Of a DNA stretch of 64,000 nucleotides, positions 1 through 61,657 are shown piece by piece. The DNA comes from Thermomucor indicae-seudaticae (Eukaryota; Mucoromycota; Mucoromycetes; Mucorales; Lichtheimiaceae). The stretch spans positions 1 to 64,000 of the forward strand of contig JSYX01000049.1 in NCBI GenBank assembly GCA_000787465.1, in the 5' to 3' direction. The notes beneath the pieces were generated by a model. That model searched no databases, was not told where the DNA came from, and saw only the letters and a list, made by a program, of their open reading frames with translations. The stretch's first letter is position 1; each line of letters begins with the position of its first letter. The translations under genes and the position numbers were made by a program.

Positions 1-1511
1 AACACTTTCAAATCCAGTATGAGAGTGCATATAAAAACTTTAAATAGAGCGATCGAACGGCAATTTTGGTATATCAAAGAATGACCTATTATACCATCTA
101 CTCTTGTACTACGCTACGCGGTCCATCACTAACGCTATGCATACATCCGACTTGCTCATCATTGATATAAAAGTTGTTATTTTTGTACAGGCCAAGTATA
201 ATTATATGGAAGCCGTAATTGAAAGCTCAGTGAATTCTGAGGTAATAGAGACTTTATTACCAGAGTTTTGAAAAGGAAACTGTACACTGGAGAAGAACCA
301 ATATTCCGAGTACTTGTAGGTTAGTAGAAAATGATTAGAAGATCGTATTTCAAGTTCTTGGAATATTGGCAGACCATCCGAAATGACGATCTGGTAACAT
401 ATTGGTAGGTGCCTGCACCGACCTTTTTCTAAAATATTCCAGTGATGTGTTGATCTTCCAGAAATCGACTCGTGATCTTATAGCCTGGCCACCATATAGA
501 AAGTCAATACCATTCTTTCAGTCGTGTGGCTATTTCTGAGAACCTTCCATGTTATTGCAGTTGATCACAAAGAAAGACTTTCGGTCATGGTCTAATTTCT
601 GGGTATTCACTAGACGATCTGTTAGTTATCCTGGTAGTCGTTACCGAGTCATTAGAAAACTTCACCAGTAATAAGACCAGCACTTAGCGTCTTTTACCAA
701 CAAAGTGCATATATGTAAATGTTATTAGCCCGTCTCCTTTACTTAGGCACCAAAACAGAGTTTAAGCGGCAGGCGGCTCAGAAAAATGCTTTATGGTGAT
801 TGGAGTGGTTCCAGTGAGTTGTTGCTTGGTTCGAAGTGACAGAACCCATGGTAACCAGAACGCATGGTTAGCTGATGACTGGCTCCTGTTTTTTCGGTTT
901 CAATGCGCAGCTCCCCGGATTCCGGGTCCATCATAGCACGGATACTCGTCAAAATACTGCGAGCTGTCATGTCGAGACGAACGATTGCATCGTTACCTGA
1001 TAGTATTACCCGATTAAATGCTACCAGCAGTAGTATCATTTCATGCTCTTACAGAAGCGAACTTTATACCGTACGAAGAAGCGCGGCTCGCCGCCACTAA
1101 CGAAGAGTGAATATTGCAAAGCCTCTAATGATTAAAGCTACGGGGTGGGGAGGGGCGGGCTAGCTTGATTCAGGGATCAGGGTGACAAGGAACGTGGAAA
1201 AGGGCACGCGGGGCCACAAGCGGCATGATTCCTTGCTCACATTGGGTAGAACAGACTCAGAAGAAAAGAGGACTTGCCTTTTTTTAAGCTTTTTGCACAG
1301 CCTTTCTTTGGCAACTTTCTTCACAGTGTCGGGCAGCAAACTGACGTTTACTCTTTGCGGACGGTTCGCTTGTTATTGTCCATGACCACGCAATCTATAT
1401 CACCGACGACGCAGATTGGCATCACCGAAGATATTGGAAAACCAAAAGAAGGTTTGATTAGATTAGCACTGGGATGCGCGCAGTATAAGATTGACTGTTT
1501 CAATAGCCATC
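1..1511. other. Intergenic, no gene recognised
   Basis: No convincing gene is visible on either strand. Short open frames around 791-1100 and 1182-1490 have no recognisable domain and no matching splice structure. The stretch from about 1190 probably includes the promoter and 5' leader of the FHA gene that starts at 1512. No tRNA, rRNA or tandem array was seen. Confidence 0.5.
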
Positions 1512-3078
1512 ATGGCGCTGCAGTCCAGCAAACAGCTTATACCACCTATTATAACCGTTATATTACAACCTCGCGACAGTCCATTTCAAACGAAAACGCT
1601 TGAATTACGGGACAAAGCACGGATCCGGATTGGCCGCCAGACATCATCCAAAACGGCACCGGGACCGTTAAACGGGTATTTCGATTCCAAAGTGCTTTCG
1701 CGGACGCATGCCGAGTTGTTTAGCGACAAGGGCAAGGTAATAATGGAAAAGAACTGCTGAAGGTTAAGTAAAAGCTGACGTATTACACAGGTGTATATTA
1801 AAGATGTAAAGTCGAGTAATGGTACTTTTCTCAACGGACGAAGGTTATCAAATGAAAACGAAGAAAGTATACCCATGGAAATCAAGACAAACGATCAGAT
1901 TGAATTCGGCATCGATATATTGCACGAGGATGGATCAAGTATGTGTGCGCGGGGTCGCTTTCACTATGGCATGAGGACTAAAACACGATACCACCAGTAA
2001 TGTATCATAAGGTTTCTTGCCAAGTATATATTATGCCGACCTCTTTATCCCAGATGGATCCTAATCTTTTAAAAGAGCTCAATATTGGATTTGCAAATGG
2101 GACAACAAATGATCATGACGTAAGTAGCGCGCACGAATGCTTCATAGTTCATTCATTGACTTTGTCTCTGCAGCTCCGAAGGAAATCTTCCTCTTCATCC
2201 ATTTCTTCTTCTTCTTCTACAGCATCCACTGCGGTCGATTTTTCCACATCTCCGGGTTCAGTAGTATCACATAAAAAATCGTCGCCTAGAAACTGGGAGC
2301 TTTTGCTGGCAAAGCTTCAGGTAATCAATTTACTGTGTCGCGTAGGTAAATCCCTTATCCTAAGAAAGAGAGCTTATGTATAGGGAGAGCTACAAAAATC
2401 GCAAGAAGTTGAAAGTCATTTACGGTCTGTGAAAGATGCTATAGAAGATGTAGACAAGACTCTGGGCAAAGCGCATCTAGAAAGGATGGTATTGTATCTA
2501 TCTCTCTCTGCTAACCGTTGATTCTGCAACTGTTATTCACTATCATATAGGACGCACAGAGCGCAGCTTTGTTAAAAAAGTTAGAGGAGGCACAAGCACA
2601 AGTGGCGGTTTATGCTGAGAAATGCCGACAACAAGATCGAGCTGTGGCATCCGCGTTGCAGGAACTCCAGCGACTTAGAAACACGATCCGGACACTCGAA
2701 CGCGAAAACGCCGAAATGTCGAGTCGTCAACCCGATCACGAGCTGAGGCGGCAAGTGGAGGAATTGAACCTTGCGCTAGAAGAACAAAGATTACAGCTTA
2801 GCAAAGACCTGATGACCGAAAGGGAACGATGCCTCGAGTTTGAGAATAAGTGCCTGACGCTGGAAAAGCGAATCAAACAGCTTGAGAAACGGCAGCAGCA
2901 GCGATCATGCTCTGGGGGTCTAGCAGACGCATTACAGGTAAAGTGAGACACACAACAGAGACGACGGAGCGAAAATCTAATGATAAAGGTTGGGGACTAG
3001 ATTCGTGGCGTACAAATATCGTTGGCTATACTATTGGGAGTGATTTCAGCTCTCTTGTATGTACTCATTGCTATTTAA
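1512..3078 (+). CDS. Tail-anchored FHA-domain protein, SLMAP / Far9-Far10 / PRO45-like (STRIPAK)
   Basis: Spliced model join(1512..1736,1791..1938,1998..2119,2174..2320,2384..2488,2551..2937,3001..3078), all intron phases matching. The N-terminal 150 residues form a phosphothreonine-binding FHA domain (IRIGRQ, LSRTHAELF, KDVKSSNGTFLNG). A serine-rich linker and a long coiled coil follow (LLKKLEEAQAQVAVYAEK onward). The final 25 residues are one hydrophobic segment (LAILLGVISALLYVLIAI) ending at the stop, a classic tail anchor. FHA plus coiled coil plus tail anchor is the architecture of SLMAP and its fungal homologues Far9/Far10, Csc1 and PRO45, which tether the STRIPAK phosphatase-kinase complex to the nuclear envelope, ER or mitochondria. 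The STRIPAK role is inferred from architecture. An in-frame ATG at 1491 is an alternative start. Confidence 0.85.
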
Positions 3079-4479
3079 ACCAAGTTAATCTGTGTATACC
3101 CCTCTCCACCGCCCAGCATATCCCCACCCCATACATACACACGTATAACATACATATACAAATGTGAAAGCCAAAAGAATGTTTGCATTTGTTACAGTCA
3201 AGGGAACGTCGATCCCATCGTTGACCTTTTGGCATCCGAAACCCCGTTAGGATTGATGTAATTTTAGCCATTAGCCACTTTTTCCTTAGCCAGTTTGACT
3301 GTAACTGAAAACGTCATCAGGTACAGGTTCTGCACGAAGGATGCCGCTTGCAGTATCTTGTGCTTGCAACCGTGCCCTATGACTTGCTGCATTTCAAGCC
3401 AATCGTCTATGGTTCTGGTATGTTAACGTAGATTATTTTGTAATCACTGTCTCTAAGGATCTTTAGGCGTGCGTGCGGTTTTCTACGAGAACCGCCACCC
3501 GCAGCTCGTAAATGATTCTGACGTGTTCGTCAAAACTGTTCATCCATGGAAAATTAGCTGAATGGATATGGACCTGCCAGCGAGGAACCTGTCTCCCCTC
3601 AATCCTCTGGGCCGGTGCCGTCGGGCAACGCTGAGAGTCCCGCACAGCGAAAACGTAAGCCTCTGATCGTTACGTCTATTGAGACGTTGACGCTTTTCGT
3701 TTCTAGAAGCTGCTGCCTCTGTTCTGGAACGATCCATGACTCGCTCGTAGTCCCTTTTCAGTAAGTAAAAAGATATGGGACCTCCGGTCTTTGTTTTCCT
3801 GACACTGTATTCGCATAAACCAAGGGCTTGGAAAGCGAGTTGACCGGAACATTTGCCGGCCCACCCCACCAAGTGCACACGCTTGTGGCTCTGATCCCCC
3901 AGTTTCGACCAACGGATTCTCGTAACCAAGTGCCAACGGCAAGCTTCAAGGCGTCGCTGGATATGACAAAGTTCGTTGGCGACCAACGAACCCCACCGTG
4001 TCATTTGTGATTTTCGCGGCGGACGGTGCCGGACTGGGGGGGCTTGCTGGTCAGGCTGGAGGAAATGGAATGCAAACTAATAGAATATACAAAATAAAAA
4101 TTAAACCTAAAACTTCATGATATGCTAAAACGGCTCAAAGACATTGCTAGTGACTGATGCAATGTTTTTACCATTGCAATCCCCACACCTGGTCCAATTA
4201 ATATTTGACTGGGCGTCGCCGTCAATCAAAGTCAGGGTCTATCGTGGCAATGAATCCCCCTTTTTCTGTTTACATCATCAGCTGACCTTGCTTTTTTGAG
4301 ATTTGGTCCAAAGACAGACATGTGGAACTGTTACGTGCTTAGCGTTTCAACCTTACATTGACAAAAAGGACAACTGTACGAAGTAGTGAATTTGTACACG
4401 ACTATTGCAGCTATAAAGAAAATAAAAGAGAAAAGCTATATACAGATAACAATAATAACAATGGACAGACAGACTTTGA
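3079..4479. other. Intergenic with a decayed coding fragment
   Basis: Mostly non-coding. On the + strand, 3327-3416 reads as open sequence with a splice-like GTATGT after it, and 3466-3550 is open again to a stop (contains VRAVFYENRHPQLVND). The first piece contains LQYLVLATVPYDLLHFK, which loosely resembles the SF3a subunit 2 (Prp11) signature QYLLxAxEPYExIxFK. No start exon or complete domain was found, so it is at most a relic. The rest to 4479 shows nothing recognisable. Confidence 0.3.
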
Positions 4480-4826
4480 TTAGTAGATGGTATCGGATTT
4501 CCATAAGTCCTTGACCGAGCTGACATAGTTTGTTTCGCCTGGATAAATCCGTCGACCGTGCGAATCGTACATGATGGGCTGTGGATACGGGTTTCCGTAA
4601 TAGCTGCCGTACATGATCCTGTTTAATAAGCCACGAAAGAGGCCGGGTCGGCGGTAATAAGGGTAGTAGTATCCATAGTAGTAAGAAGACGCTGGATAAA
4701 TTTGGCTGTAGAGGTATGGATTGTGATAAGCAGCGTAACCACTGAAAGGATAATTGTACACTTATGTTCGGATTAGTTCCTGTTTAAAATAGTTGTAGTA
4801 TTCTTCTTACTTGAGTAATAGGACAT
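4480..4826 (-). CDS. Tyrosine-rich small protein, unknown function
   Basis: Two exons, complement(join(4480..4760,4811..4826)). A 16-nt first exon (MSYYS) ends in phase 1 and the 3' exon starts TG, so the junction codon is ATG and the frame is clean for 98 residues. The protein is unusually rich in Tyr, Pro and Gly (SYYYGYYYPYYRRPG, YGSYYGNPYPQP) and has no membrane segment or known domain. The composition is that of low-complexity, aggregation-prone or structural proteins. Function unknown. The splice consensus GTAAG/AAG and coherent codons support a real gene, but no homology can be confirmed here. Confidence 0.55.
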
Positions 4827-7800
4827 TGTGTCAAGAGTGGAAAAGAAAAGAAAAAGAAGGGTGGTGTACGTGTATATATATCCACGCGCGCGTATAAGGC
4901 TGCACGTTTGATTGGGTGGGCATCAAGGTGTAGTCAGTCAATGGCAAGATCACATGGTCCCGATCTTCCGAGAACCGGCAACATGTAGCACAAAGTGGTG
5001 ATCGTTCTCAATACGCAGGACGAATAAGCTACAATAGAAATCCCTTGTACAAGATTTATTACGTCAAGTGATTTGCCCGCGCTTTTGTGCCGTCTGTCAA
5101 ACGGGTACCCTCATCATCTTCCGTCCGTTGCATACGGCGCATGAGGGCTATGCAAAAGAGGAAAGAAAAGGGTTGTCCTGTCATTGGTTTCCCCAAGATT
5201 CGGGTGGATCCGACTTCATTATTACAGTATTTTGAGCAGCCCAAAGATCTGAATGAATTGGAGAGATCAATCCTCCATCATAGCCTCTGCACACAGTTCG
5301 TTAAAGTACTTTATTTCATCGGAAGCCTTGTCTCCACCCACAGGGGGGCGGGGTGGTTCTGCGCATACAGCATGCTGAGCGACACACACTGTGAGAGACA
5401 AAAGGCCAGAGCTCGATGATCATATTTCATGCTTGCCATGAGCAGGTTTGGCAACAAAAAACCAGGTCCGGGCTTAGGATGCTGAAAAGGCCAGAATCCC
5501 CGAGTCTTTTCCTTCTGGGACGCTGTGTCTCTTTAGACGATAATACTGTGCGCGACGATGAAGAAAACGTTGGATAGGCGTGTCATGTGCCAGGGGGTGG
5601 TGTTCTTCGGCCACAGCCGCACGAGCGATGCAACGAAACGAGGACGATTAGATGCTACATAGAATTCCTGCGCGTAAACCGTTGTGCGTTCAAACCACGT
5701 AACCACCTTCATTGACGCCAAGAGATGGGCTGTGCCACAACCACTGCCCCCAGGATCAGAACGCCCGGAAAGCATCAACTCATCAATCGACCCACACGTC
5801 ATGGGACACGATGTGTTGCCAAAGATTAATTTGACAAATGGCGAAATGGTTAGGGCGTGATTGAAATCCAATGTCTCTCCGTACCGTCCTGTCACAATTT
5901 AGCCAGGAAGACGAGGTCTCTCTCATCGTCTGCGAAGTGCCATTACAGGCGCCAGTCTGTGAGCACCAAGAGCCACATTCACCAATGTTGAACAAAGAGC
6001 AGGAGCTTCCACTCGTCAGCAGTGACTCCGGATTCGATGCAAATACGGATCAAAAATTTCGTATAACCAGGACGCAATACAGGTTTTGCACGAAAAGTAG
6101 GGATATATGTACAATGAGAAAGAAATACGTATGATTTTGTACAGGATGCAAAAGAGTGCTTCTTCAAACGGTTCATAGCAAATCGGGCAATGGTTATGAA
6201 CAGAATGTTACAAAGTCATTAAAATATAAATACAAAGTGATAAGTGTATACAATGAAGCCAAACAATTTGGTGGTTGATTCTAACGACAAGAGGGGTATA
6301 TTCGGCGTAAATCTGCGCAGCCGAATCTCTGCTCAGTTGAGGAGCATATAGCCCAGTTCCTCTGATAGATAGGCCTCGCTTTACCTTGTTCGTTCCCATG
6401 AGACAGATTTCATCAGCAGGAAAGAAGAGAAGAGTTACGGACATCGGAAGCCTTATGTACGAACCTTTCTTGGTGCAGCCACATGAGTGGCCAAAGTCGA
6501 CAACTCGCTTAGTCAAAGTTTTGGTCAACGAGCAACAAATTGTAAAAGACTGGCGAAAAGTGCTTCCGCACACACAGGGAAAAACAGCAAAATGTCAATT
6601 TTTGAAATGCCAACACCCCTTTTTTTACACTCAAGACCGGAGTTTCACGGATGACATTTACGCTGATGGGACTTTTTCCGATATCCTTCGCTTGATGTTT
6701 CGCGCCAGTGTGTGTAAGACATGCTTGCTTTCTCATTCGAGATTTGGCAACTCAATAGCGGTGTTCTTGTCCCAAATATTACCGCTTAGAGTTCCTAAAC
6801 TGTATGGGGTTCCGAAATACCAGAGCAGAGCAGAGCAGGGGAAGTAGTGATTCTTAATCTACGTTTGAACTCTGGCTTCGTTTGTCTTGCTCTAGTTCTG
6901 GAAAGCAGAGCAGACTCGGAATTCGAAAGCTGTATCGTCGGCTGTGTCAGAAGGAATAAGAAATACGTAAGCATGAGCCATTTATCTTATATGCCTTACA
7001 AGATGATATCTTTCCCGAAAGCGTCGTCTGGCTATCTCGTTAAGCTTCCTGATAATTCCCACGACTTCGCTTGTTGAAAGACTAAATGACGACATAAGCT
7101 AACAAATACGCAAATTGATAGTTACTTGTATTACCTGCCGCCGGCTCTGATCTCCGTTTGTATCGCTTTTCTTGCTCGCTCGGACCAAACGCACCAGGGA
7201 GCTCTTGGAATGTCGCCGGTTATCCGTATAAGCAAGCAAGAGAAAGACGGCCGGCCTTCACCGAGAAGCAGGCCGCAATAGTCTTTAGCAGACAGGTGGC
7301 CATTGCAAAGTTGGCCACGAATCGAGCTCGAAGCACTCACACTATGTGCTTTTATAGGCGTCAAATATTTTGAGCCATAGAAAATGAAAATACTTGCGTG
7401 TACTTGCGTGGTTTTGCCGAGCGCCACGTCACCATGTTTTTAGTGAAATGGCTTTGCCCCTCCGGAAGCAGGCCCTAGAAAAGGGGCGACGTCAAGATCG
7501 TTGACCGGCCGACAAATGAACGCTCCAGAAATGTCTCTTCAGTGCAAACATGAGTTTCAGCATCGTCACCAAAGCCGTCTTACGTAGACTTGCACTTGCA
7601 TGACAAAGATAGCTGGGGAAAAAGAAAAGTAATTCAAGTCGGCTTTTATTCGACATGCGCATAAAACGTTTTAAACTCCTGAGCCCTTTATGTTACGCGT
7701 CTTCTGTGTCTAACAGTATGCGGACTGAGACATGGTGAGCACAGTATAGGCATTCTTTCGTAAGAGCTTGCACGGGATAAGGTGGTCAAAGACATGATGA

Positions 7801-9171: not shown

Positions 9172-12133
9172 ATGTCAAGATTACCCAGTGCAAGCGGAAT
9201 CCCTCCGCCAACGAGGCTCGCTCGACAACCTTCACTCGACCTAAGGCGGAGAAAGCATCAAACGGAACAGGCGGTAGCACCGCCACCTGTCCCACCCTTG
9301 AAATCGACAAAGTCTACTCGTGCGCCTTCCTTGTCGCGTGCATCAGTCTCCTCCTATGAGGAAGTGGAATCACCTAGCTCCTTATCACGCTACTCACTTT
9401 CCTCCATGAGCTCTACTCAGACTGCTCTGACTTCCCCACGTACGTCACTGACCTCACCCAAACCCTCCAGCAGACGGCCGCCATCGACCTCCAGGTTGCA
9501 ACAGCAGCAGTCGCCGCCGCTGCCGCCGTCTATCAGTCCAACACCGTCGACGTCATTGCGTGTGGGTGAACGAGTCGCTGTAGACTCGATGGGTATCGTG
9601 GGCACCCTTCGATTCCTGGGACCGACCCAGTTCAAAGAGGGCATCTGGGCTGGTATTCAACTGGATATTCCTGGTACAGGAAAAAATGATGGATCTGTCA
9701 ATGGGTAAAAAAATATATTGAGCTCCCGTTTCTCCGTCCCTTGTTAATTATGATTTAAATCTTTAGATTGCGTTACTTTTCATGCCCACCACAGACAGGT
9801 CTGTTTGTGCAAGCTTCCAAGGTCACTTCTTTGAACAGTGACAACGAATCGGTGCGATCCAGCTCACCTCCACAAGGCGGCCGAGCTGCTCGTTACGTTG
9901 GCATGACTGCCAATCAGCTGACCCAGCGTCAAGCTCGCACGGTATCCTTGCAAGCCCCTAATCGTGCAGCTCGCCGTCAACAACAATCTGCTTCGATTCA
10001 ATCACCTACGCCGACCCGGCGCCATGTTTCGCAACCCATCCCGGGTGCAACGGATGGCATTCCGTCTCCGGCGATCACTCCGACTAGCAACAGCAACAGT
10101 CTCCAGGACGAGGCAGACGACGATCTTCTGCTCCAAGAAGATGATATGTTGACCGAAACGCCCGAGCCAGTCAATATGGCGCTCTCCAAGTCAACGAATG
10201 TGGAGGATGAAGAAGACGAGCATGGGATGATGGCACCGGATGAAGCGGCGATGCGAATCCAGCAGTTGCAGCTCCGCGTGGGCGTTTTGGAAGCCGAAAA
10301 CAAGTACCTCAAGCATGAGAATGCGCGGAACAAGACGGCCGGTGAGAGAGAAGGAGGAGATAACGAATCGCTCTCACTCGAGAACCACAATACGATTGTC
10401 CAAGAAATCAAGGATGAGCACGCAGCCGAGCGCAAGAAATGGGAGACGGAAGCTGATGACTTCCGCTCGACGATCAAGAAATTGGAGACGGAGGCGGATG
10501 ACTTCCGCTCGACGATGAAGAAATTGGAAGGCCGAGTCCGGGAGCTGGAAGCCGAGCAAGCCGAGCTGATCAAGGAGCGCGACGCGTTGCAGGAGCAGCT
10601 CAGCGAGGCGCGCAAGGAAAAGAGCATGATGGAGCACAAGGTGCACGAGCTCGAAGAAAAAGTAGCTGTGGCTGAGGCCAATGCGGCGACGTCGCGCGCA
10701 GCGGCTGTCCAGCAGCAGACGACCGCCAACTTTTACTCGCAGGATCCGGACGAGATGCGCCAGAGACAGATGCAGATGGAGATGGAAATGGAAGAAGTGC
10801 ATGAAAAAATGGGGTCCCTGATGGAAGCGATGCGGGCCAAGGACATGTTTCTTGCTCAGCTGTCGGAACAAGTCGAGATGCATCGCAACACGGTAGAGGA
10901 GCGTGAGCGCGAGGTCCGCAGGGTACGTGCGGATGCCGAACGCCATGCGCGCGAACGTGACCGGCTCCGTGAAGAAGTGAATGAGCTTGAAGCCAAGTGG
11001 ATGCAGCACCAAGACTGTGCGTCCCGCGAGGAATTTGACAAGGTGAAACGGGAACTGAACCAGGCCAAGGACCAACTGGCGCGCGAAACCGCGGTCGTGG
11101 AGGATTATCGCAAACTTGTCGAAGATCTGAAGCGCGAGGTGGATGAACTCAAGCGCGATGGTATGGAGAGTATTGAGCTGTATGAGAGCTCTGTGGAGCT
11201 GCATCGTGTAGACATGGAAAACGTCAAGGCGAGCCTGATGGAGGAACGTCGGAAGGTGGCTGCGCTGGAAGCCGAGCGCGAAGACCTCCGCAAAGCCGGT
11301 CTGGATGCCATTGAAGCTTACGAAGCGACCATTGAAGAGCTCAAGAAGGAGCGGGCCGCGTCTGCCGAAGAAAACGAGCGAACGCGCCAAGAGATGCAGG
11401 CTACGATTGACAAGCTCAAACAGGAAATGGAGCAGCTGGTCAATGCTCGCGAGAAGTCGCATGAAGAAGAACAGGCAACAGCTGCTACACCCAAAGAGCC
11501 ATCACCATCATCGGACGACGAACGGATAGCGAAATTACAGGCTGAACTCAAGGAATCCAAACGTCAAATGGAACAAATCGTTGTAAAGCACGACGATGAA
11601 GTTCGTCAGCTTAAAGAGAAACACGAAAAAGAGGACAGTGCACGACAGTGGGAGATCACCAAGTTGACGCGCGACATTGCTGAACTGGAAGGACTTATCG
11701 AATCCAAAGTGTTTAAGGAAGCCGATCTGGAAGAAGCGTTGGAAAACGAACGAAAGAAGTCCAGTCGTATGCAAACGGAATTGGAGGATCTCCGGGATCA
11801 ACTCAAGCAGCTTCAAAAGCAGCAACATGAGAGCAGTCTAATATCATCATCATCAGCCAGGGCTAGTAGCCGCAGTACGAGCCGCAGCAGCAATGGACCG
11901 ATGACGGACGACGCTCCATTCTGTGAACTGTGTGAGACGCCAGGCCATGACTTGATAAGCTGCAAGGCTGTTGTTCTACCCAACAAGAAGGATGATAAAC
12001 CTGTAAGTGGTCCCTCGTGACTGTGGATTGAAGACCATGTGTACTAAGTCAGTCTTTACAGTATTGCGAAAACTGTGATGAATACGGACTACACTGGACA
12101 CAAGAATGTCCCAACCAAAACGAGATCTTTTGA
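9172..12133 (+). CDS. CLIP-170 / Tip1-like microtubule plus-end protein (CAP-Gly, coiled coil, two zinc knuckles)
   Basis: Spliced join(9172..9704,9767..12002,12062..12133), 946 residues. A Ser/Pro-rich basic N-terminus precedes a CAP-Gly domain at about residues 130-200, with the diagnostic GKNDGSVNG box split by intron 1. Residues about 270-865 are almost continuous coiled coil. Two CCHC zinc knuckles end the protein: CELCETPGHDLISC near 899-912 and CENCDEYGLHWTQEC at the extreme C-terminus, interrupted by intron 2. This order matches CLIP-170, S. pombe tip1 and S. cerevisiae BIK1, which bind growing microtubule ends through CAP-Gly and recruit dynein/dynactin via the knuckles. The pyrimidine-rich leader and first in-frame ATG decide the start. 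A 14-residue unit is tandemly duplicated in the coil. Confidence 0.93.
10443..10526 (+). repeat. 42-bp tandem duplication in the coiled coil
   Basis: Two adjacent 42-bp units (10443-10484 and 10485-10526) encode ETEADDFRSTIKKL and ETEADDFRSTMKKL. Fourteen residues are two heptads, so the duplication keeps the coiled-coil register. Confidence 0.85.
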
Positions 12134-25049: not shown

Positions 25050-27866
25050 TTAACTCACGGGTACAGTAACATATTCGCGCCTGGCCAACAATTCCTTGAT
25101 CATGTTATTCCGTATGCGGGCCTTGCGATGTCGCCACCATCGAGCACACTTGATCCAAGCAAATATCGCAAAGAGAATCAGGATAATGGCACCAGCAACA
25201 GCTGATGTTTGGATAAGTCGAATAAAGCGTTGGCCACTCTAAGAAAAAGTTCGAGTTATTCCTTGCCTCGCACTTGGCATGTTCTAAAAGACGACGTTAC
25301 ATCATTCAGCCACCAGCAGGTTGCATACGCACCAATGACCCAACAGGACCCGGTGCTGCTACCAGAGTTTAGGTTGATCCAGAAAAGACGGTGTAGTGGA
25401 TCGGTAAAACCAGGATCCAAAGGTGCGTTAACACGCAAATCCTTTTGGATCACTTGGTATAGCATACGGTTTTGTTCTGCGGTTCTTGGGCAGTCAAACA
25501 CGTAGTTCTCTGGGCAAGCGGCAAAAGCGCGGTCATAAGAGACGTAGGAGGATGTCAGCGTCCACTGTATAAGATACATATGTGAGTATTTAGACTATAA
25601 AGAAAAGATATTGTCTCCTGGCTGCCTTGGATGATGAAGTGAGTGGCAAAAGGACAGTTGCGCTCAACTGCATACCGTGATATGCTCTAGATTACGTGTA
25701 GTGTTTACGTCAACAACATCATGGATAGAAGACACAAAGTAAAGCTTGCTAGCCAGTCTAGCGCCTAAGGTATGCTTACTAAGACATAAGCCGACAGATG
25801 CTGAATAAACAGGGAAAAGTTATCATCACCCGACACTCAATTGAAAGTCTAAACGTTAATGGTGTCTAGTATGCAAACCTTCCGAATCTGAATACGTCCC
25901 TCCAGCAGTTGGCTAAGCTCATGCGAACAAGTAGCAGTGAATGCTTCGTTGCTCGTCCGTCAGTCTCAATTGGATAGCAGGTGACAAGCATTAGCGCTTT
26001 GACATACACCGAAAACTTTGAAAGTAAGCTCCTGGGTTCTGTCGCATCAAACCAAGATATTGGAAAGAGTTCCTCCAGGTTTGCTCTTTATTGGAACCTA
26101 CATTTCATAAGGTGAAGGTTATCGAAGAGATTATGTAAAGAGACGTTGTAACTTGCGGGCTACGTAACACAGCATTGCGATCCGTGACTTGGTGATTCGT
26201 GGCCAGGTGAGCACGGTCTCCACGTACAGTCCACCACTGCTTTAGCGACCAAAGCTTCCCGTTTCTCAATGCTGCTGAAAGCTATCGAAGACTTGTCAGC
26301 TCATTTACATCTTTGGACTACTTTAGGCGGTGACAAAGTATGCAATGACTCGAGATTCGTTTGACGAACCTCTTAACTCGGCGGTAGGCACTCCTAAATT
26401 TCCCCAAGGTAGCTCAGTGTTGGAGACAGGGGGGATGATGCAATTTTCGGGCAGTTCAAAGCGCTCTCTCACAATATGCTGTTGACGCAGGCCACCAAAG
26501 CACCTAAAGCAGTTTTCACGGTTATATGCAGTTTTGATCCAGACAAACCCGCTTGATGCGATGGGAACCCCCCCCTCCCTCAGCGCACAATGTCCTTTTG
26601 CCATCATCATCCAAGGAAGTTAGTCAGTAATATTACCTTGTCCGGATTATCCTTGTGTCGACAAGCTGCTCGTAACAACTGCGTGCAATCACCTGCACGC
26701 CATCGACCGTTCCACTGCTGGACCATCGCACAGCGCGGTACTTCATTGTTTAGGTTGACACGCGGTTCATGTACATCCCAAGACCACAAGGTGGCGAGGA
26801 TTCGGTCGGCAAGATCGTTGCTTTCAGAGTAGGCTACGAAATATGGCGAATAACCGCACTGGACGGCGCTCAGCACCGTGTTGTAATCGAAGGTGTCGTT
26901 GTCTTGTTGGGCGTAAGCCCAGGATAATGCAGTTACAGCAGTATTATTATGATCGACGCAGGCATTCGTGGCATTGACGAGCCAAGCACCCAATTGTGTC
27001 TCGTTGAACAGAATGTCGGCGTCATTGGTAAGATTATAATTTGTGTCACTCGGGAGATTGTTGTCGCCGACGCCGACCAAGAGTTGCACGCGTTGCCGGA
27101 TGAGATAGAACCAGGATGGCCAAGCCGTAGTGGTCAAGTTGCGGGGTGCGTATATCCGTGGCGCATTGTTTTCTGCGTTCACAATGGCTGAAAGTATCGT
27201 GTCGCGCAAACTGGATGCAGTCTCGTTATTATTGGTTGCTGTTGATGTTATGTTGTGATTACTGATACTGATATTAGTGCTGTTATCATTACTGGTGCCA
27301 TTGAGCTGATAGAGGTTCAAGACAAGAAAGAGCAAATCGGTGTCAGCCGGGGATGTAGCCAAGTCGGTGGAAGTGAGATAATGGTTGACTGAATCCATAA
27401 AATGGCGAAACGTGTACCACGGGGCGCATTTAACCGATCCGATATCGAGGTTTTGGGTTGATGCTTGCTGTAAAGACGTTGCTGGTATCTTTTCCGGACA
27501 CAATTGCCAATTCCGACGACTGGCATCCCAGAAGATGTCCAGGACAAGCCGACGGTAACCCATCCTCATAACGAGTTCCACTTCACTCAGTCTCTGTGCC
27601 GAATAATCCGACCGAAAGAAGCTGCGTCCCATATTCAATGCAGGCCATAGGTGCCGGTCAATAGTGACGTTGAGCGCAATATCTCGTTGTGTGCGAAGCG
27701 GTATCGTCACGTTCTCTGAGCCAAACGGGACACCTTTGTAAGGTGTGCTGCCACTATAGACATTAGGTAGGGAAAGGAAATTGTGCGATTGGATGGACAA
27801 GACAGTGTCAATAAAAATGCATAGTATAATCGCGACGACGATTCGAATGAGCAATGTCCTTGGCAT
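25050..27866 (-). CDS. MTC6: MTC6-like membrane glycoprotein
   Basis: Model complement(join(25050..25238,25274..25564,26637..27866)), 569 residues. A signal peptide (IRIVVAIILCIFIDTVLS) leads to a large lumenal domain rich in N-glycosylation sites, with SQRDIALNV-like region, YRRLVLDIFWDASRRNWQLC and CAPWYTFRHF, a C-terminal WTLTSSYVSYDRAFAACPEN-type block, and one membrane helix near the end (TSAVAGAIILILFAIFAWI) before a basic tail. This matches fungal maintenance-of-telomere-capping protein 6, a membrane glycoprotein whose name comes from a genetic interaction; its molecular role is unclear. The first intron is 1072 bp against about 35-75 in the neighbours and contains a 992-bp inverted-repeat element. 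The third exon follows an intron with a weaker GTGCGA donor. Confidence 0.88.
25625..26616. mobile_element. DNA transposon-like element with 35-40 bp TIRs inside the MTC6 intron
   Basis: The ends are imperfect inverted repeats: 25625-25664 begins CCTTGGATGATGA and continues TGGCAAAAGGACA...TGCGCT, and 26582-26616 is its reverse complement with a 5-base gap. Removing the element leaves an 80-nt intron, the normal size here. Inside, a 95-codon frame (minus strand, 26323-26610, with CFRCFGGLRQQ) starts within the right TIR and has no recognised domain. No target-site duplication is evident, so the insertion is probably old and the element non-autonomous. The superfamily is unresolved. Confidence 0.75.
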
Positions 27867-59317: not shown

Positions 59318-61657
59318 CCGCTGTCGTCGGGATCTCGACCAATATCACCGATCAGTTCTTCTCGGACGTTGTCGTTTTCACGATCCATGGAAAAAAAACA
59401 ATAAAAGAAAGGGGAAGGAAAAAGAAAGCGATGCGGAAAAAAGGAAGACGAAACAAATTTGTCTTGGACAAAAACAGATATGCTCAGAATGGGCTAATAC
59501 GAAAACAAGCTAAAGACCGCATCGAGATGTAAGAGTTGAGGTGCATACGTCAGACATTGCATTTTACTGTCTTTTCTATGCATAAAGCTACTTGCTCATG
59601 TGTGTAGATCACTTTCTCTCTTCACGTGCAGTCATAGGTATTGCAAGAGCTTAATTAATATAAACATCCGGGCACTATATATTGACAGGGAAATCCTGTT
59701 ATGAACATGTTCACTTCCGGTCAACTCCATCAAAGCTGTGTCCGTCATGTGTATAAGGCTCATGGCTCGACAACAGCGTGGTTCTAGCAAAGCGTGTCCA
59801 TTGTTTGGGCATGCAGACTTCCATTCCATTGTCGGAATCGCCACATTCGGCACTGGGAAGAATCCGGAAGCATCTTTGAATGCTAACATCGCGTTCGAGA
59901 ATGACGATTCCAGCATTGGCTTGGTAGCGATCGCTTTTTGCACGCACAACGCCAAACTCGTTCTGTAAATTCTCCCTTCGCATACCGTATATGCCGGGTT
60001 TAATGCCAGATAGCTGAAACACCCGTTCTGTTCAAAATGACAGGGCTTTTTGCAACGTGCGCCCAAGTATAACAAGGCTGCTTGATAGTACATCTCGTTT
60101 TCTTTCTTGTGAAACTGAATGTTTGCGTTGTGTACTGCATATAACATCGATCATTTCGTTACAAAACAATAAGTAGTCGTGAGCGGCTGATGATATAAAG
60201 TGGGCGCTCGATATAACGATCACCCCTGAGAATGCCGAGGGTAATCGTTATATCGAGCGCCCACTGTAGGTGTCAAGCTTTCTTTTTTCGCGCACGGCAT
60301 TTCTTACGGAATAAACAGTGCCGAGTTGGTTCACCCCTGTTAGTTAGCGGGATCTAAGTTCTGATCCTTCGCTATTATCTCTTGTTCAGGTTGCTGTTGC
60401 AGGCGTGACATGCTATCCACAAAGGCTGCATGCTAGGTTAAAAGGACAGTAGGAATATAGAAAGAAGGGAAATGTCCAGTTGATAACAAGATCTGGTCCG
60501 CAACCATAGACTGCATCTATGGCATTTTGGCTTTAGCCTTCGATCTCGTACCACCGTCATTTGTCATACTAGACAGAAACTTTGTTTTGCTTATTAGCAG
60601 CAACAAGTGAATCATTTTTCCGGCCGCCAGTCCGAAAACACACAGACAAATACTCAAGACAATGCTTTGAACATGATTGCAAATAATGAGTCGATCGCAC
60701 CAGCGTCACGATCAACCTGTACAATACAAGGATACCAGACGGCCATCCGTGATGGTTTTGCGTTATTCAATATGCGTTGGAATTAACAAGTCTTTTATGA
60801 ATTGGTTCGAGAAAATAAAGATACAGAGACACTAAACGGTCGAGTTTCGTTCATGAATGGACGAAATGTGTTTCAACGACAACAGCAATGATGACGATTT
60901 CGGTCGGTCACACTCTGAAACTACCAGGCTTGAGCTTAACCCATGCCCCAGAATCATGCTTGCTAAGCAACAGTTGCGAAACCAGATGCGTGCCGCTGTA
61001 GCAACAAATAAAGAGTCTTCGATGGTTCCCAATACCAAACGACCAACGTGTATTGCGCGCACGCTTCCAGACTACAGGGCCTTCAATGAGACTTTTCGTA
61101 AATGCTGGCTGCACTGAATATGCATTCTTAAAGAAGTTTTTGGTTATCTGCTCATCCGAGCCGGTCTCGTGGTGATAATGTCCATGGGGTCATGGCGTTG
61201 GTCTTGTATTCTTTTTCCTCTTTGTAACCGTACCCACAGCATTAAATCAATACTCCTGAATTATGAACTCTCGCAGAAAGCACACGCGGAAAAAGCCCTG
61301 AACCATGCAGACGATTGTATTTGGCTTTCCCAAAACTAACAAACTTTGCCAATTGAGAACATCAAAGAATTGCACATAAACGCCGCAGCGGCCAGCCCAT
61401 TTGAAACTCCGAAATCATCATTGTTCCGGTCCGAACCGATCGCTGTTTTTGGACTGCTTTTGGCGATGCTCCGACGGCGTTTCCCCCGTGTTGGACTTTT
61501 CTGGACGCCTGGGCCGACATAATGGCTGCGATGGGAATCCCGGCGTTTTATTATAAAAAGGGCGACGATCTGGCTGTATTTCTGGACGATCTCTCTTTCG
61601 CTTTCTCCCTTCCCCTCTCTCTCGATTCTCACTATTACCTTTTCTACAAGTAACACA
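59318..61657. other. Gene-poor tract
   Basis: No firm gene. The longest frames are 59632-60147 (minus, 171 codons) and 60857-61117 (plus, 86 codons); neither has a recognised domain, signal peptide or splice support. A fold-back element sits at 60198-60266. A TATAAAAAG at 61552-61560 is about 100 bp upstream of the next ATG and is probably its TATA box, with a pyrimidine-rich leader after it. Confidence 0.45.
60198..60266. mobile_element. Fold-back miniature element, pogo/Tc1-mariner-like TIRs
   Basis: Two 27-nt arms (60199-60225 and 60239-60265) are inverted repeats with a single mismatch, separated by 13 nt; the arm begins AGTGGGCGCTCGATATAACG. The right end finishes CACTG directly before TA, and TA also precedes the left end, as expected for a TA target-site duplication. 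The whole unit is essentially two transposon termini with no interior, a miniature inverted-repeat element that can extrude a hairpin. Confidence 0.7.

Follow-up and report, generated by a model that had tools for sequence, protein, structure and literature searches.

A 992-bp single-copy unit in the first intron of a Thermomucor MTC6-like gene carries inverted ends predicted to pair in the pre-mRNA

Fungal introns are mostly short, and to our knowledge the tolerance of large insertions in them has seldom been examined. In the 64,000-nucleotide stretch of Thermomucor indicae-seudaticae DNA analysed here (the window), the first intron of an MTC6-like gene is filled for most of its length by a unit bounded by inverted repeats (Table 1). 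What is this unit, and how could the gene have tolerated it? The case is defined and testable: it involves a single gene and a pair of arms, and what it predicts for splicing is clear.

The gene is on the minus strand and represents family PF25506, in which the names of relatives include 'Maintenance of telomere capping protein 6'. The nearest named relatives (Zychaea, Circinella, Phascolomyces, Fennellomyces and Syncephalastrum) show 43-46% identity. Removal of introns 1 and 2 gives an intact frame of 560 codons, with a tail resembling that of the relatives. The length of 1072 nt originally predicted for intron 1 was confirmed, with GT...AG ends and phase 0. The K and W codons that flank this intron are joined without a gap in nine of the ten aligned relatives, the exception being P0010, which lacks a stretch there; the count omits P0001, the same gene in unspliced form. 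P0001 differs at 2 residues over 419, and its final nine residues are the start of the intron read into the right repeat of the unit. The same junction is present in four other contigs. Since P0001 (four contigs) reads through the junction of intron start and repeat, this junction is no error peculiar to the present assembly. Of the neighbouring introns, originally given as 32-75 nt, two were spot-checked, intron 2 and one in a neighbouring gene (9705-9766); each is 62 nt long.

Table 1. Features of the MTC6-like gene and of the unit in its first intron (window positions)
Feature	Position	Strand	Details
Exon 1 of MTC6-like gene	26637..27866	-	410 codons; spliced-frame reading and alignment to relatives
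Intron 1 of MTC6-like gene	25565..26636	-	1072 nt, phase 0, GT...AG; K and W codons on either side
Exon 2 of MTC6-like gene	25301..25564	-	spliced frame
Intron 2 of MTC6-like gene	25239..25300	-	62 nt
Exon 3 of MTC6-like gene, including stop codon	25050..25238	-	spliced frame
CTCAC, likely branch-point sequence	25582..25586	-	motif scan; A 18 nt from intron end
Single-copy unit bounded by inverted repeats	25625..26616	.	992 bp
Core of left inverted repeat (3' strand of predicted RNA stem)	25622..25664	+	repeat alignment, fold
Core of right inverted repeat (5' strand of predicted RNA stem)	26582..26619	-	repeat alignment, fold
Possible inward extension, left arm	25665..25740	+	looser alignment (weaker support), fold
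Possible inward extension, right arm	26470..26581	-	about 47 extra nt next to core; looser alignment (weaker support), fold
95-codon open frame	26323..26610	-	no relatives; chance length

The proteins of six relatives break, start or end at the codon boundary of intron 1, and may be read as signs of an intron there. P0010 (Syncephalastrum) and P0012 (Dichotomocladium) lack the residues directly after the equivalent of the K, as if a splice donor had been annotated at this point. P0036, which is a relative's genomic frame, begins immediately behind the W, one residue past the K-equivalent. P0032-P0034 run from ACR plus seven residues into a V, possibly a GT codon, as does this gene's own frame, and stop at least 8 residues beyond the K-equivalent boundary; their placement is an ungapped count from ACR, and a MAFFT alignment puts those tails elsewhere. 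Four others (P0002, P0009, P0013 and P0019) cross the boundary unbroken, on short contigs (2344-4218 bases) that could be transcripts. Because of the breaks, starts and ends at the same boundary, the intron is probably older than the unit. The original prediction of an insertion into an existing intron is indirectly supported by these protein boundaries in six relatives, and the four unbroken ones speak against it.

The unit was correctly sized in the original prediction; it is wholly intronic, and its excision leaves an intron of 80 nt, as had also been stated. Its arms align over CTKCCTTGGATGATGA, a 6-nt insertion present only on the left, and then TGGCAAAAGGACAKT and TGCGCT, where K marks the two columns at which the arms differ. 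The single 5-nt indel described earlier is in fact one of 6 nt (AGTGAG), accompanied by a further gap of 1 nt. The core pair of arms scores 44, as against a maximum of 28 among 2000 Markov-randomised pairs and of 31 at 2424 placements of the same spacing in the window. The unit thus has terminal inverted repeats (TIRs) that exceed chance, as expected of a TIR DNA transposon, and the earlier description of imperfect inverted repeats at its ends holds. We also scanned 222,146 bases with BLAST, namely the window and the fetched loci, a sample biased to loci with Mutator-like (MULE) transposases and holding two loci twice. Pairs 300-3000 nt apart that score above that of the unit were found only in L028, L030 and L027, all MULE-bearing, although in L028 the MULE domain lies outside the pair; the unit's own pair reaches 37.4 bits, and the best of the remaining pairs 28.3 bits. 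With a looser alignment, the arms can be followed further inward, to about 25740 on the left and 26470 on the right. The score of this extension was equalled in 2 of 2000 randomised pairs for its near part and in 83 of 2000 for the whole halves, and two or more further placements of the same geometry in the window outscore it. It is therefore likely, but not proven, that the inverted arms extend beyond the core. Within the extra stretch of the right arm, the run GGGAGGGGGGGG (26571-26579, minus strand) adjoins the repeat.

Counted along the intron in the pre-mRNA, the right arm starts at nt 21 and the left arm finishes at nt 1012, which puts 20 and 60 nt between the repeats and the splice sites outside them. 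The arms are predicted to pair over 13 + 13 bp with a bulge of 6 nt, giving a duplex of -51.4 kcal/mol; in an ensemble fold that included 200 nt of each flanking exon, all 26 core pairs have a probability of at least 0.95. A 13-bp helix at this position arose in 5 of 1000 shuffles and at none of 606 placements in the window. The total folding energy is well below that of 100 shuffles (z -5.0), but no more than about 2 SD below that of 41 window stretches of equal GC, one of which lies lower still, and this speaks against the stem. Against 60 shuffles each, z was -2.4 for the antisense strand and -1.65 for the interior by itself. A CTCAC motif at intron nt 1051-1055 was called as the likely branch point on the basis of the consensus CTNAY; its A, at nt 1054, has an unpaired probability of 0.88 in the predicted fold. 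The linkers from the 5' splice site to this assumed branch point add up to 61 nt (20 + 41). The 6 nt peculiar to the left arm (25639-25644) read CTCACT in the RNA; the predicted bulge accordingly holds CTCAC a second time, at a distance of 75 nt from the end of the intron.

Stems that zip introns shut are known from yeast, for which the available part of the source (PMC12350175) gives a rule: at least 6 bp with a bulge of up to 5, placed at least 10 nt from the 5' splice site and at least 20 nt from the branch point, with a total linker of 42-85 nt. The 6-nt bulge exceeds the allowed 5 by one nucleotide, so only the outer 13 bp count; with the branch point assumed from the motif, these fit the geometry of the rule as given in that part of the paper (PMC12350175). 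Both the stem itself and any influence that it has on splicing are predictions. In the same fold, the intron's two leading bases (unpaired probabilities of 0.04 and 0.08) and, for the most part, its final AG are also paired, and for that reason splicing would be hindered.

With confidence and doubt in about equal measure, we favour the reading that the unit is a non-autonomous cut-and-paste DNA transposon, or the internally deleted relic of one, in an older short intron, and that the gene has tolerated it through the pairing of its ends, by which the intron is zipped shut. We infer the transposon origin from the ends, and the greater age of the intron from the relatives. The element would have entered the pre-existing intron of the MTC6-like gene long ago; its source element would since have been lost, and the target-site duplication would be gone or unreadable. 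The paired ends would loop out about 990 nt, so that the intron would in effect measure about 80 nt, close to the length of the two others checked (62 nt); in our proposal it is because of this shortening that the insertion was tolerated, the oversized intron perhaps being spliced like a short one. TIR-bearing elements in general could in principle shorten their own footprint in pre-mRNA in this manner. It also seems conceivable, if on balance unlikely, that the inverted repeats of the transposon have come to serve the invaded intron as its zipper, selection for splicing keeping the core paired while the rest decayed. If this were so, an insertion expected to wreck splicing would itself have supplied the rescuing structure. 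In the literature searched (titles and abstract openings, with few subscription journals covered), we found no description of transposon ends that act as an intron zipper. The components are known, as far as the available parts of the sources go: zipper stems, introners and MULEs with repeats of 14-500 bp.

The same stem could have another history, in which the intron grew by other means, its complementary ends being kept or arising as a zipping RNA structure, and no transposon was ever involved. We consider this doubtful. It would suit a unit that is single-copy and devoid of a duplication or coding trace (see below), a stem in the position of the yeast zipper stems as the accessible part of their description has it, and arms that on alignment look more alike in the core than further in. 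Yet arms of 38-43 nt this similar, unpaired neighbouring blocks included, exceed the 6-bp minimum given for zippers in the part of the yeast paper available (PMC12350175), and they are as strong as transposon ends in this genome. Moreover, G-U pairs are in no clear excess, judged by eye, among the positions at which the arms mismatch, these positions being too few to say. Compared with the yeast stems, as far as these are covered in that source, the arms of the unit look transposon-derived, and the predicted stem is much longer and belongs to a distant fungus.

For a DNA transposon as we favour it, further copies and a target-site duplication might be expected, and the original prediction of a mobile element had proposed to look for both. 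Searched with the unit as a whole, with its right arm, with its interior and with three patterns of the repeat, the 24.8-Mb assembly (735 contigs) yielded only the unit itself, and the repeat pattern did not match viral contigs. No convincing target-site duplication was found at its flanks; the best symmetric match, ATAT, is equalled or beaten at 19.2% of 3000 random places. The unit resembles non-autonomous TIR DNA transposons and MITEs in being a short non-coding unit with TIRs inserted in the intron of a gene, and differs from them in its size of about 1 kb, its single copy in the assembly and the lack of a duplication. MITEs are usually multi-copy and usually short; with 992 bp and no second copy found, the unit does not match this pattern. 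As a transposon it would be otherwise ordinary, a lone relic to which no family is assigned.

The transposons of the same genome offer a standard for these absences. Eight MULE transposase matches were found, and in three of the eight loci (L024, L027 and L030) the MULE domain is flanked by inverted repeats; two of these three, L027 and L030, served as controls. With up to 3 mismatches, the ends of L030 occur genome-wide only at its own two ends. For L027, exact matches are confined to its own two ends, and 3 mismatches admit 8 further places, as against 4 for reversed control patterns. At both loci, too, no clear target-site duplication was apparent. Because two MULE loci are likewise single-copy by their ends and without clear duplications, the missing copies and duplication do not refute a transposon relic. 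The absence of a second genomic copy, named beforehand as an argument against a mobile element, is indeed what we found, but it is weakened by these two loci; a mobile element remains favoured by repeats above chance, against which stand the lack of copies and of any duplication beyond the 4-nt AT match.

Could the unit be a MULE-type non-autonomous element specifically? We think this improbable, and the superfamily of the unit is unproven. MULE transposases are present in the genome, and a survey lists, in the part available to us, MULE TIRs of 14-500 bp with duplications of 8-11 bp, and MULE-Mucorales with repeats of 40 bp and a 10-bp duplication (PMC6446971). The core of 38-43 bp falls within this range and near the length listed for MULE-Mucorales in that portion of the survey, and the arm is possibly longer; repeat length by itself is weak evidence and not diagnostic. 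A duplication of 8-11 bp, or the 10 bp listed there for MULE-Mucorales, is absent from the flanks, and the unit neither holds a transposase nor shares its ends with a MULE. The two main blocks of its repeat, TGGATGATGA and GGCAAAAGGAC, are missing from all eight MULE loci found, and for this reason we leave the transposon family open. The sequence CCTTGGATG occurs once in L027, away from the repeats of that locus.

The MULE loci themselves vary in structure. L030 (3687-5975, G000:C122) is a 2289-bp unit with inverted ends of 35 bp (94%) and a MULE domain in an open frame of 367 aa, and L027 (4197-6241, G000:C107) a 2045-bp unit with 24-bp inverted ends and a MULE match containing one stop. In L024 (G000:C609), nested inverted-repeat pairs (1223-6722 and 2728-6245; 112 and 187 bp) surround the MULE match. 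L028 (122-3302, G000:C698) has a 220-bp inverted repeat of 90% identity beside, and not flanking, its MULE match, and a second pair of 111 bp overlaps this repeat at its right end.

The interior of the unit gives no sign of a coding past. The 95-codon frame without known domain that had been pointed out is present, and no Pfam family reached the cut-off in the five frames scanned (best DUF3574, E 0.049); a frame as long occurs in 65 of 500 shuffles of the intron, and it has no evidential value. A protein search with it matched nothing but itself. Stop-to-stop fragments of the unit, compared with the fetched loci and the rest of the window, gave nothing better than E 0.087, and neither this comparison nor the Pfam scan revealed similarity to a transposase. 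A tRNA scan found none, and the sole Rfam match up to E 1, MESTIT1_3, was taken as chance (17.7 bits, with a gathering score of 60). An interior without relatives in the genome, and a frame that matches only itself, would also be expected of a rearranged or foreign single-copy fragment lying between an inverted duplication, neither transposon nor functional RNA. We regard such a fragment as decidedly unlikely, as it would not account for the neat framing of the unit by its ends within a single intron.

Lastly, that the unit is an introner, an element that itself brought the intron, is very improbable and was rejected on the position of the intron and the lack of copies: introners resemble it as TIR-bearing sequences associated with an intron, with TIRs in 72 of the 177 families with assessable ends in the part of the study available (PMC9860276), but they create introns in many copies, whereas here the splice sites lie outside the repeats, the assembly holds no family of copies, and the intron position appears, from the proteins of relatives, to be older than the insert.

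Elsewhere in the window, a near-perfect hairpin at 60196-60268, with 30-nt arms of 93% complementarity and a 13-nt loop, is the strongest of the short inverted repeats listed there.
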